From assembly GCF_019972315.1 (NCBI RefSeq), contig NZ_BLIZ01000001.1:2100513-2164512 (forward strand): a stretch of DNA of 64,000 nt. The letters are read 5' to 3'. Source of the stretch: Geobacter sp. AOG1 (lineage in GTDB: Bacteria > Desulfobacterota > Desulfuromonadia > Geobacterales > Geobacteraceae). Positions within the stretch are counted from its first letter, which is position 1; each line of letters opens with the position of its first letter. Under the pieces are notes generated by a model. That model had not been told where the DNA came from, searched no databases, and was given only the letters and a program-made list of their open reading frames with translations. Position numbers and translations under genes: made by a program. Shown in pieces: positions 21,745 to 25,101 of this stretch.

Positions 21745-24564
21745 TTAATCGTCATTGCGGTTATAGCCAGGACGGTAGATCACGTTACGAACGACCGTGC
21801 TGGTGTTGCCCGCGGCATCCACGGCGGTCACGGTGATGGCATACAGCTTGGGAGTGGTGAAGGTGAGCCGCTGAGTGAATGCGCCATCGTCGATCGCGGG
21901 GGTGTAGGTCTTGCCGTTCATGGTAATCGTGACGGTTACGTGCTCGCTGTCGACAACCTTACCCTTGAGGACCAGGTACGGGTACTTGGTGGTGATGTCC
22001 TGAATGGGGTAGGTGACCGCAAGCGAGAGGTTGCTATTGGTGGCGGCGGTGTAGGTTACCGTCCGCTTTACGGTGGTGGTGTTGCCGGCCAGGTCGGTGG
22101 CGTTGATGGTAATGGTGTTGACGCCTGCCACCAGGTAGACGGTGGTGCTGTAGGTAGTGCCGGATACGGAGGCGGATTGCAGTGGGCCGCCGTTGACGCT
22201 GACACTGACCGTTGAGGTTTCGTTGATGGTGCCGTTCAAGGTAATGAACGACTGGCTGGTCGTGCTGTTGTCGGCCGGCGCGGAGACAGTCAGGACCGGT
22301 GCGGCCGGGTCAAAGGTTATGGTACGGGTATCGGTCTTCTGGGTGCCGGCATTGTCGGTGGCGATGACCGTAACGGTGTTGGCTCCGACCTGGAGGGTAA
22401 GGGCGTAGCTGAAGGAGCCATCGGCATTGACGGTGACAGGCTGGCCGTTGACGGTGACAGACTTGATGCCGGCTGTATCAACTGCGCTGCCGCTGATGTT
22501 CAGGGTGCCGTTGTTGGTGTACATACCGTTGGCCAGGGCTGACACGGTCAGGTTGAGAGTCGCCTGGGTGATCGTGATGGTTACCGTGGCGCTCTTGGCT
22601 GCGGAGACATTACCCGCGGCGTCCTTAGCCCAGGCGTAGAAAGTGTTGCTGCCGGCAACGGCGGTGACGCTGGCCGGTGCGGTGGTGCTCCAGCCGGTGG
22701 CGGATGCTGCCGGAGCGGTGGAGCTCGTGGTGATCAGGTAACCGGTGACCCCAACGTTGTCGGTGGCGGTAAAGGAGCTGACCGGCACGGTGAGGCTGGT
22801 GGAAGTGGCCGGCAGGGTGAAGGCGCTCACCACGGGAGCGGTGGTGTCAGCCGCCGGGGGTAGTGTTACGCTTACACTGGCGCTTTTGGCGAGGGATACG
22901 TTACCTGCCGCATCCTTGGCCCAGGCGTAGAAGGTGTTGCTGCCGGCAACGGCGGTGACGCTGGCCGGTGCGGTGGCAGTCCAGCCGATGACAGATGCTG
23001 CCGGAGCGGTGGAGCTCGTGGTGATCAGGTAGCCGGTGACCCCAACGTTGTCAGTGGCGGTAAAGGAGCTGACCGGCACGGTGAGGCTAGTGGAAGTGGC
23101 CGGCAGGGTGAAGGCGCTCACGACTGGAGCAGTGGTGTCGGGGAGGGTGACGGTCACGCTGGCGCTTTTGGCGAGGGATACGTTACCCGCTGCATCCTTG
23201 GCCCAGGCGTAGAAGGTGTTGCTGCCGGCAACGGCGGTGACGCTGGCCGGGGCGGTGGCAGTCCAGCCTGCGGTGGAAGCTGCCGGGGCGGTGGAGCTCG
23301 TGGTGATCAGGTAGCCGGTAACCCCAACGTTGTCAGTGGCGGTAAGGGAGCTGACCGGCACGGTGAGGCTGGTGGCGGTGGCCGGCAGGGTGAAGGCACT
23401 CACCACGGGAGCGGTGGTGTCGGGGAGGGTGACGGTCACGCTGGCGCTCTTGGCGAGGGATACGTTACCTGCCGCATCCTTGGCCCAGGCGTAGAAGGTG
23501 TTGCTGCCGGTAACGGCGGTGACGCTTGTCGGTGCTGTGGCGGTCCAGCCGGTGGCGGAAGCAGCCGGGACGGTGGAGCTCGTGGTGATCAGGTAGCCAG
23601 TAACCCCAACGTTGTCGGTAGCGGTAAAGGAGCTGACCGGCACGGTGAGGCTGGTGGCAGTGGCCGGCAGGGTAAAGGCGCTCACGACGGGAGCGGTGGT
23701 GTCGGGGAGGGTGACGGTCACGCTGGCGCTCTTGGCGAGGGATACGTTACCTGCCGCATCCTTGGCCCAGGCGTAGAAGGTGTTGCTGCCGGCAACGGCA
23801 GTGACACTGGCCGGTGCGGTGGCAGTCCAGCCGGTGGCGGAAGCAGCCGGGGCGGTGGAGCTCGTGGTGATCAGGTAACCGGTTACGGCTACGTTGTCGG
23901 TAGCGGTAAGGGAGCTGACCGGCACGGTGAGGCTGGTGGCGGTGGCCGGCAGGGTGAAGGTGCCGACGACCGGAGCGGTGGTGTCAGCTGCGGCGACAAC
24001 GGTGAAGGAATTGGTGCTCACGACTTCATAGCCGTGCTCAGGGTTGTTCGGGTCTGGAGTCCAACCGGTGCCGAATGTGGCCCCTGACGCATCATACTGG
24101 TTGCCATACCACCCTACTTTCCAGGTGTAGGTGCCCGGCGTGGTCGGCGCCTTCGCGGTCAACGTCACGGGATAGGTCGCATCCCAGCCCATGTCACTTG
24201 CGTTGCCGGTAGGCCTTGCCAGCACTACCATGTTCTGGTCGTAGAGAATTGCCCCAATCCATCCGGTGCGATAGCCGCCGGTGATGGTCACCGTCACGGT
24301 CGCGCCGGGTGCATAGGAAGTCGCGTTGGTGACGCCCTTCACGTTGATGTCGTTTTTCGTGCTCGTTGAATGGGTACCGTGGGCATGGCAGCCATTGCAG
24401 GTGGCGACTGCCGGGGCTGTATGGCAGCCGGAGCAGCCCATGCTGGTGAAGTATGATGATTGCGCCACTGCCTCCGTCTCTTTAAGCTGAGAAACTACCA
24501 GAGCAGATGCTCCCAGCGCCACTGCAAACAAGAAGTGCCCTGACGCTTTCCTGACATTCTTCAT
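21745..24564 (-). CDS. Secreted di-heme protein with tandem Ig-like repeats
   Basis: A 939-residue exported protein. A signal peptide (residues 1-36, ending near AVAQ) is followed by two c-type heme motifs, CSGCH and CNGCH, about residues 43-60. A beta-rich domain runs to about 190. Then come five nearly identical 94-residue repeats beginning DTTAPVV and containing FYAWAKDAAGNVS. The end carries three bacterial Ig-like or Big-type domains (VTVNGQPVTVNADGSFS, LVAGVNTITINATDLAGNTTT). The start is the ATG at 24564, with AAAAGGAG upstream. The layout suggests a cell-surface or extracellular cytochrome-like protein held out on a stalk. Expression is probably controlled by two riboswitches directly upstream. 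The heme function is inferred from motifs only. Confidence 0.88.
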   Translation of the reverse strand: MKNVRKASGHFLFAVALGASALVVSQLKETEAVAQSSYFTSMGCSGCHTAPAVATCNGCHAHGTHSTSTKNDINVKGVTNATSYAPGATVTVTITGGYRTGWIGAILYDQNMVVLARPTGNASDMGWDATYPVTLTAKAPTTPGTYTWKVGWYGNQYDASGATFGTGWTPDPNNPEHGYEVVSTNSFTVVAAADTTAPVVGTFTLPATATSLTVPVSSLTATDNVAVTGYLITTSSTAPAASATGWTATAPASVTAVAGSNTFYAWAKDAAGNVSLAKSASVTVTLPDTTAPVVSAFTLPATATSLTVPVSSFTATDNVGVTGYLITTSSTVPAASATGWTATAPTSVTAVTGSNTFYAWAKDAAGNVSLAKSASVTVTLPDTTAPVVSAFTLPATATSLTVPVSSLTATDNVGVTGYLITTSSTAPAASTAGWTATAPASVTAVAGSNTFYAWAKDAAGNVSLAKSASVTVTLPDTTAPVVSAFTLPATSTSLTVPVSSFTATDNVGVTGYLITTSSTAPAASVIGWTATAPASVTAVAGSNTFYAWAKDAAGNVSLAKSASVSVTLPPAADTTAPVVSAFTLPATSTSLTVPVSSFTATDNVGVTGYLITTSSTAPAASATGWSTTAPASVTAVAGSNTFYAWAKDAAGNVSAAKSATVTITITQATLNLTVSALANGMYTNNGTLNISGSAVDTAGIKSVTVNGQPVTVNADGSFSYALTLQVGANTVTVIATDNAGTQKTDTRTITFDPAAPVLTVSAPADNSTTSQSFITLNGTINETSTVSVSVNGGPLQSASVSGTTYSTTVYLVAGVNTITINATDLAGNTTTVKRTVTYTAATNSNLSLAVTYPIQDITTKYPYLVLKGKVVDSEHVTVTITMNGKTYTPAIDDGAFTQRLTFTTPKLYAITVTAVDAAGNTSTVVRNVIYRPGYNRNDD
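22570..23985 (-). repeat. Five tandem 282-bp coding repeats
   Basis: Repeat starts on the minus strand are at 23985, 23703, 23421, 23139 and 22848. The first three units are exactly 282 bp, the fourth is 291 bp (extra PPA codons), and the fifth degenerates near 22570. Nucleotide identity is very high, which indicates recent duplication or gene conversion. Confidence 0.9.
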
Positions 24565-24703
24565 GATTACTCCTTTTGTTGTTTGTTCGGAACAATACGT
24601 TCCCTCGTGCGGCTGCTCTTCATCGGTGAGCGGAAGTGATGAACTCTTCCTTTCCTTCACGTTTCCTCCATGTGCTTGGGGTTAGGCCCGGAGATTCTGC
24701 ATA

Positions 24704-24812
24704 CAAAAAAACCGGGGCCGATATCGTGTGATATTTCGGCAACCCGGCTGTCTCTTTGAGACCCTGTAGGCTTTCCGCCCCATCCTCACGGATGGTTTAG
24801 TATTATCGTGTA
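24704..24812 (-). promoter_or_regulatory. GEMM-I riboswitch, gene-proximal copy, with terminator
   Basis: Read on the minus strand it has the GEMM-I pieces in order: UACUAAACC, a CAUCC-GUGA-GGAUG stem with a GNRA tetraloop, GGGGCGGAAAGCC, a GUCUC-aaa-GAGAC stem, and GCCGGGUUGCCG. An overlapping hairpin (CCGGGUUGCCGA with UCGGCCCCGG) followed by seven U residues is a terminator. Position 20 appears to be A, and the 21/46 pair is C-G in place of G-C, as judged by eye against Vc2. That is the signature linked to cGAMP-sensing GEMM-Ib riboswitches of Geobacter. Ligand binding should favour read-through. Confidence 0.85.
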
Positions 24813-24924
24813 CCACCTGCTGAATCATGCCGAGTATGCAACGACTGCAAGTCGGCAGGATACTTACGCCTTTTTCAGGCGCGTGCTACATGTTTTTCCA
24901 AAACGCTCCTTTTGATAGCGGACA

Positions 24925-25036
24925 CAAAAAAGCCGGGTCCGAATCTCGCGCGATTTTCGGTAACCCGGCTGTCTCTTTGAGACCCTGTAGGCTTTCCGCC
25001 CCACCCTCGCGGATGGTTTAGTATTATCGTGTATCA
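24925..25036 (-). promoter_or_regulatory. GEMM-I riboswitch, distal copy, with terminator
   Basis: A second aptamer with the same core as the proximal copy and a GCGA tetraloop in place of GUGA. One stem pair is changed from U-A to U-G, consistent with selection on RNA structure. Its own terminator (CCGGGUUACCGA with UUCGGACCCGG plus U6) follows. Two complete aptamer-terminator units in series should give a steeper or gated response. Confidence 0.85.
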
Positions 25037-25071
25037 CAACTGTTATTGTGTTGTTATTGATGTGTGGTTAC

Positions 25072-25101
25072 TTTATGCCTTAATCTGGTAGACAAAGTCA
25101 A
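25072..25101 (-). promoter_or_regulatory. Sigma-70-type promoter of the riboswitch-controlled gene
   Basis: On the minus strand, TTGACT (25101-25096), an 18-base spacer, then CATAAA (25077-25072). It lies about 35 bp upstream of the distal riboswitch, so both aptamers would be in the transcript. Confidence 0.55.

Follow-up and report, generated by a model that had tools for sequence, protein, structure and literature searches.

The closest described systems to the locus analysed here are the GEMM-Ib riboswitches of Geobacter, such as those preceding pgcA (GSU1761) and pilM (PMC6456294, PMC9262584, PMC8835794). The mechanism of the pilM switch has been measured, and there the terminator captures the C of the aptamer that pairs with the ligand (PMC9262584). 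G. sulfurreducens possesses 17 GEMM-I elements, several of which are in tandem, and at one of these tandems, ahead of OmcAHG (GSU2885), deletion of gacA leads to a loss of RNA by the second switch (PMC6456294). An A20G swap turns such a switch to c-di-GMP (PMC6456294). In Geobacter, there are GEMM-I elements that bind c-di-GMP and others that bind both ligands, and a response to cGAMP as well as to c-di-GMP was reported for the OmcST switch (PMC6456294). By analogy with these cases, A20 is to be read as biasing selectivity without guaranteeing a preference for cGAMP. Tandem arrangements have also been catalogued for c-di-GMP-I riboswitches, where 347 doublets and 12 triplets were explained as pseudo-cooperative (PMC9481103), and a triple, Bc3-5, has been described (PMC4759541). 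Already in 2009, conserved leader elements that overlap predicted c-di-GMP riboswitches were noted before Geobacter cytochrome genes (PMC2700814).

In the 64 kb window (the whole stretch of DNA that was analysed), we find a tandem that we read, with a probability of about 0.9, as two GEMM-Ib (3',3'-cGAMP) transcriptional ON switches in series in the leader of a gene that encodes a secreted protein with two heme sites and Ig-like repeats. It has in common with the pgcA and pilM switches the A20 pocket, the contact residues, a C-capturing terminator and the predicted ON logic, and it likewise belongs to a set of elements keeping company with electron-transfer and surface genes in a genome that encodes GacA. 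It differs from them in its downstream gene and in that its ligand is predicted. Two complete serial switches are also found at OmcAHG, although the gene and the species differ. As in the pseudo-cooperative c-di-GMP-I tandems, independent aptamer-plus-expression-platform units appear to serve one ligand and one gene, but those tandems are discussed as sensing c-di-GMP, whereas the pocket here is of the cGAMP type. Tandem GEMM-Ib switches and cGAMP-dependent read-through are already published for G. sulfurreducens and the present locus is a further instance; its additions are the gene family that is targeted and a view of how widely the tandem is spread in the Geobacteraceae.

Results and discussion

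Two complete GEMM-I units in series

A scan of the whole window at the Rfam gathering threshold returned only two matches, both to RF01051 (c-di-GMP-I/GEMM-I; gathering cut-off, 35 bits) and both on the minus strand. Each aptamer covers the full model (positions 1-87) and scores above the cut-off, which places both units in the GEMM-I class (Table 1). The tandem occupies the minus strand of 24704-25041, with the 5' unit of the transcript at the higher coordinates; measured from P1 to the U-run, unit 1 spans about 25038-24926 and unit 2 about 24816-24705. The two aptamers are 96% identical, the tetraloop on P2 is of the GNRA type in both, and each is followed by a terminator of its own. They are separated by 144 nt, within the gap of <300 nt that defines a tandem, and the open reading frame list holds no ORF of at least 80 aa in the inter-unit stretch. 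The first-pass annotation had described two complete aptamer-plus-terminator units with GNRA tetraloops and near-identical cores at 24704-25036. That description holds throughout: its range is right to a few bases, and the strand, which it left unstated, is the minus strand. The GGTGGTA motif in the P1 region of unit 2 is kept in all six aligned tandem pairs.

Table 1. Positions of the tandem riboswitch, its surroundings and the GacA orthologue (window coordinates unless a contig is named).
Feature	Position	Strand	Details
Candidate sigma-70-like promoter	25072..25101	-	TTGACT, 18 nt, CATAAA; upstream of unit 1; read from sequence
P1 5' strand, unit 1	25033..25038	-	UGUGAU, pairs with AUCGCG past the junction in folds of nascent 96-100 nt
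Unit 1 aptamer (5' unit)	24956..25032	-	RF01051, 46.8 bits, E 5.3e-6; GCGA tetraloop; A20, C21-G46, A47, C92
Intrinsic terminator, unit 1	24926..24970	-	5' arm AGCCGGGU, shared with the 3' strand of the aptamer; U-run 24926-24931; MFE -45.4 kcal/mol, z -4.3
Inter-unit spacer	24821..24920	-	two predicted hairpins; z -1.98, 6 of 200 shuffles as good
P1 5' strand, unit 2	24811..24816	-	GUGGUA, pairs with UAUCAC in folds of nascent 96-100 nt
Unit 2 aptamer (3' unit)	24735..24811	-	RF01051, 49.0 bits, E 1.5e-6; GUGA tetraloop; A20, C21-G46, A47, C92
Intrinsic terminator, unit 2	24705..24749	-	5' arm AGCCGGG, shared with the 3' strand of the aptamer; U-run 24705-24711; MFE -42.5 kcal/mol, z -3.7
In-frame 32-codon N-terminal extension	24565..24660	-	GTG start with its own ribosome site GGAGGAAAC
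Regulated gene	21745..24564	-	939 aa from ATG; two CXXCH near the N-terminus, then Ig-like repeats; Pfam Glucodextran_B, Big_13
GacA orthologue	G000:C1:2561948-2563336		463 aa; receiver domain and GGDEF, Ser at the Hypr position, GGDE motif; adjoins hisS

A ligand pocket of the cGAMP type

In the Rfam alignment, both units have A at model position 11, C and G at positions 12 and 37, A at position 38, and C at the equivalent of C92. With Vc2 numbering laid on the Rfam consensus, we take model positions 11, 12/37 and 38 to be Vc2 positions 20, 21/46 and 47. The covariance-model search and its alignment thereby confirm what had earlier been placed by eye, namely A rather than G at Vc2 position 20 and a C-G pair at 21/46, in two elements that match RF01051. 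The solved 3',3'-cGAMP riboswitch contacts its ligand through G8, A9, A11, A12, A14, C15, G40, A41, A42 and C75 (PMC6274999). All ten of these bases are matched in a by-eye comparison with the window sequence, as GAUAAUAC at positions 8-15 and GAAA at 40-43, and the string GAUAAUAC...GGAAA...(A/G)CC is present in both units.

Membership in a sister family was considered and rejected. In a narrow search, c-di-GMP-I-GGC (RF03167) was the top-scoring clan member for both units, slightly above RF01051 yet below its own cut-off of 59 bits (50.5 bits for unit 1 and 52.6 bits for unit 2), and it requires G47, where both units have A. Clan and fold are thus common to the two families, but the pocket is A20-A47 here and G20-G47 in RF03167.

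Terminators that re-use the aptamer strand

Both units fold better than their shuffled counterparts, and in each the minimum-energy fold is the terminator, whose 5' arm is taken from the aptamer (Table 1). In predicted folds of the growing transcript, an aptamer-type P1 closes at about 96-100 nt and the terminator takes over from about 104-108 nt. With increasing length, these folds have the ligand-pairing C92 captured by the terminator to the exclusion of the aptamer, which is the arrangement of the pilM type of ON switch. Because the terminator re-uses the 3' strand of the aptamer including C92, as in pilM, we infer that the switches act by induction, and the earlier proposal that the gene is induced by cGAMP gains support from this analogy. 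Without ligand, the nascent RNA would commit the 3' arm of the aptamer, including C92, to the terminator, and transcription would stop. With cGAMP, for which the GacA orthologue is the likely source, the aptamer would keep its 3' arm, the terminator would be blocked and the polymerase would continue.

The TTGACT/CATAAA site upstream of unit 1 is probably the promoter of this leader, and both of its elements recur in L043 and L045, the nearest of the orthologous loci. An automatic promoter scan did not call the site because its -10 match is imperfect; the single hit of that scan was weak, and on the minus strand it placed no site between the units. The inter-unit spacer was also considered as a possible conserved extra RNA, a candidate that was dropped because it folds only weakly better than shuffles and its sequence varies between loci. 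At a permissive threshold, Rfam gave the spacer and its flanks chance-level matches only and assigned no family. A hairpin of the TGCCG...CGGCA type recurs in the spacers of related tandem pairs, and the spacer hairpins may serve simply to keep the two aptamers, which are nearly identical, from mispairing with one another.

Downstream of the tandem, the 939-aa protein has a signal-like N-terminus, which predicts secretion, and two heme sites, both read from the sequence. The extension that precedes its ATG is in frame in the closest relatives, L043 and L045, and is also readable upstream of L080 and L083, and its residues KE.K.SSL...SEQTTKG are kept in several relatives. It is possible that this extension marks the true start, giving the protein a long N-region, or that it is a translated leader.

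Conservation of the tandem among relatives

A scan of the genome collection with the downstream protein identified 13 relatives of it, whose hosts are Geobacter sp. H2geo, Geomobilimonas luticola, four Geomonas species, Pelotalea chapellei and several MAGs. A fourteenth match, in Rahnella, was a weak repeat match and was set aside. An A20 GEMM element lies upstream in 13 of 13 relatives; by pattern, it forms a tandem in eight, with a spacing of 194-230 nt, and is apparently single in five. A wider census of the family by pattern showed A20-A20 tandems in 23 of the 48 genomes searched and in 10 of 14 genera; they lie mainly ahead of L,D-transpeptidase-like lipoproteins and the diheme Ig-like family, and a U-run follows each unit in nearly all of them. 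The tandem is not a product of chance: the same arrangement lies 5' of orthologues in other species, and a reversed control pattern gave 0 matches in the 48 genomes. If these elements bind the predicted ligand, serial cGAMP switches are common in the Geobacteraceae, and a conserved target, the secreted diheme Ig-like family of Geobacteraceae and related genomes, joins the regulon through which cGAMP governs contact-dependent metal respiration.

The comparison between species also bears on whether the second unit could be a passive tandem duplicate, such that expression depends on one switch alone and having a pair makes no difference. The high identity of the two aptamers within the locus would be expected of such a duplicate, and since five relatives apparently have a single switch, the second unit is not essential. 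The terminators, however, are 68% alike between unit 1 and unit 2 within the locus but 96% alike between the same unit here and in the nearest species. Terminators therefore keep their unit identity between species, and the units are old and have been separately maintained. With A20-A20 tandems recurring in nearly half of the genomes of the census, ahead of unrelated genes, we consider a passive duplicate unlikely and retain two functional switches as the preferred reading. In this locus and in that of the closest relative, L071, the two units of a genome share one P3 loop sequence, which is not the same in the two genomes (UCAAAGA here, UCACAGA in L071), a pattern that, with terminators staying distinct, hints at gene conversion between the aptamers.

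Expected effect of two switches in series

As both units would have to be passed, expression is expected to follow the product of two read-through probabilities. In a model with identical, independent units, EC90/EC10 falls from 81 for a single switch to 40 with no leak, 50 with 10% leak and 61 with 20% leak. The dynamic range of the model is squared, so that, for example, a 9-fold range becomes 81-fold, and basal read-through is squared as well, at the cost of a lower maximum output and a higher midpoint. The series would thus leak very little, raise the effective threshold and steepen the response modestly, and tight repression through the squared leak is expected to be a larger effect than steepening. 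The steeper response put forward in the first-pass annotation is therefore right in its direction, while its size in the model is small.

The same serial arrangement could also be built from units that differ in affinity or timing, which would move or remodel the response more than it would sharpen it. The units do differ in their P1 helices, in position 91 (A or G) and in their terminators, but the weaker affinity dominates in two serial ON switches, leaving little gain beyond a lower leak, and such an inequality is to our mind improbable. It is more doubtful still that the A20 units have been tuned apart through these same features (P1, position 91 and the terminators) into one low-affinity and one high-affinity cGAMP gate, possibly with c-di-GMP cross-talk in one of them. 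Were this the case, the pair would control a costly extracellular heme protein in a thresholded, leak-proof manner.

GacA and the GEMM-I elements of the genome

GEMM-I elements number 19 in this genome (3.68 Mb, one contig); 17 of them are A20 and two are G20. Among the genes downstream are pilM and others for a lipoprotein L,D-transpeptidase, for multiheme and diheme proteins and for surface proteins, with functions that were read from translations and not all by search; on this footing they match the G. sulfurreducens cGAMP regulon (PMC6456294). The genome also encodes a GacA orthologue, a predicted Hypr GGDEF cGAMP synthase, with close relatives in 46 of 48 family genomes. Its best match in the PDB is 6d9m (258 bits; the next, 155 bits), the title of which fits the T4 lysozyme fusion of the G. 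metallireducens GacA GGDEF domain that has been described (PMC6456294). Because the contact residues match, a GacA orthologue is present and the regulon resembles the published one, cGAMP is the ligand that we infer for both units, in agreement with the original GEMM-Ib assignment.

It is very unlikely that, A20 notwithstanding, the switches sense both ligands or chiefly c-di-GMP, with the gene answering to total cyclic dinucleotide or to c-di-GMP, a reading for which the double sensitivity reported for OmcST, the demonstration of cGAMP binding for 12 of 17 G. sulfurreducens GEMM-I elements and the about 20 GGDEF domains of this genome, most with the canonical Asp, leave some room, but against which stand the match to all published cGAMP riboswitch contact residues, the A20-C21/G46-A47 pattern common to most of the regulon, and GacA itself.

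Among the GGDEF-type proteins, L062 (G000:C1:36785-37255, plus strand) and L069 (G000:C1:2875643-2875912, plus strand) are without the base-selecting Asp, having Thr and Ser, respectively, and may not be ordinary diguanylate cyclases. Elsewhere in the genome, a single A20 GEMM element (L014, G000:C1:2731740-2731816, plus strand) lies ahead of a paralogue of the diheme protein with CSGCH and CAGCH motifs and the same following segment.

A different kind of tandem is found at G000:C1:2518477-2518760 on the minus strand (L001, L009, L049 and L087), where a G20 (c-di-GMP-type) aptamer lies about 190 nt beyond an A20 (cGAMP-type) switch and its terminator. After the G20 aptamer, a hairpin pairs AGTACCTC with the Shine-Dalgarno sequence GGAGGTACT just before a GTG start, and the gene behind it encodes a secreted FN3-type protein. 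This mixed tandem is kept in two other species (L020/L085 and L021/L086), and thus in three of the four genomes of the genus, and an exact-pattern search found none in the other 44 of the 48 family genomes. If the ligands are as predicted, it would constitute a two-input gate for cGAMP and c-di-GMP acting at transcription and translation, and it is possible that it serves as a two-messenger logic gate. The pair of cGAMP and c-di-GMP is absent from the list of two-ligand tandems in PMC9481103, and the mixed tandem is less ordinary than the tandem of the window.
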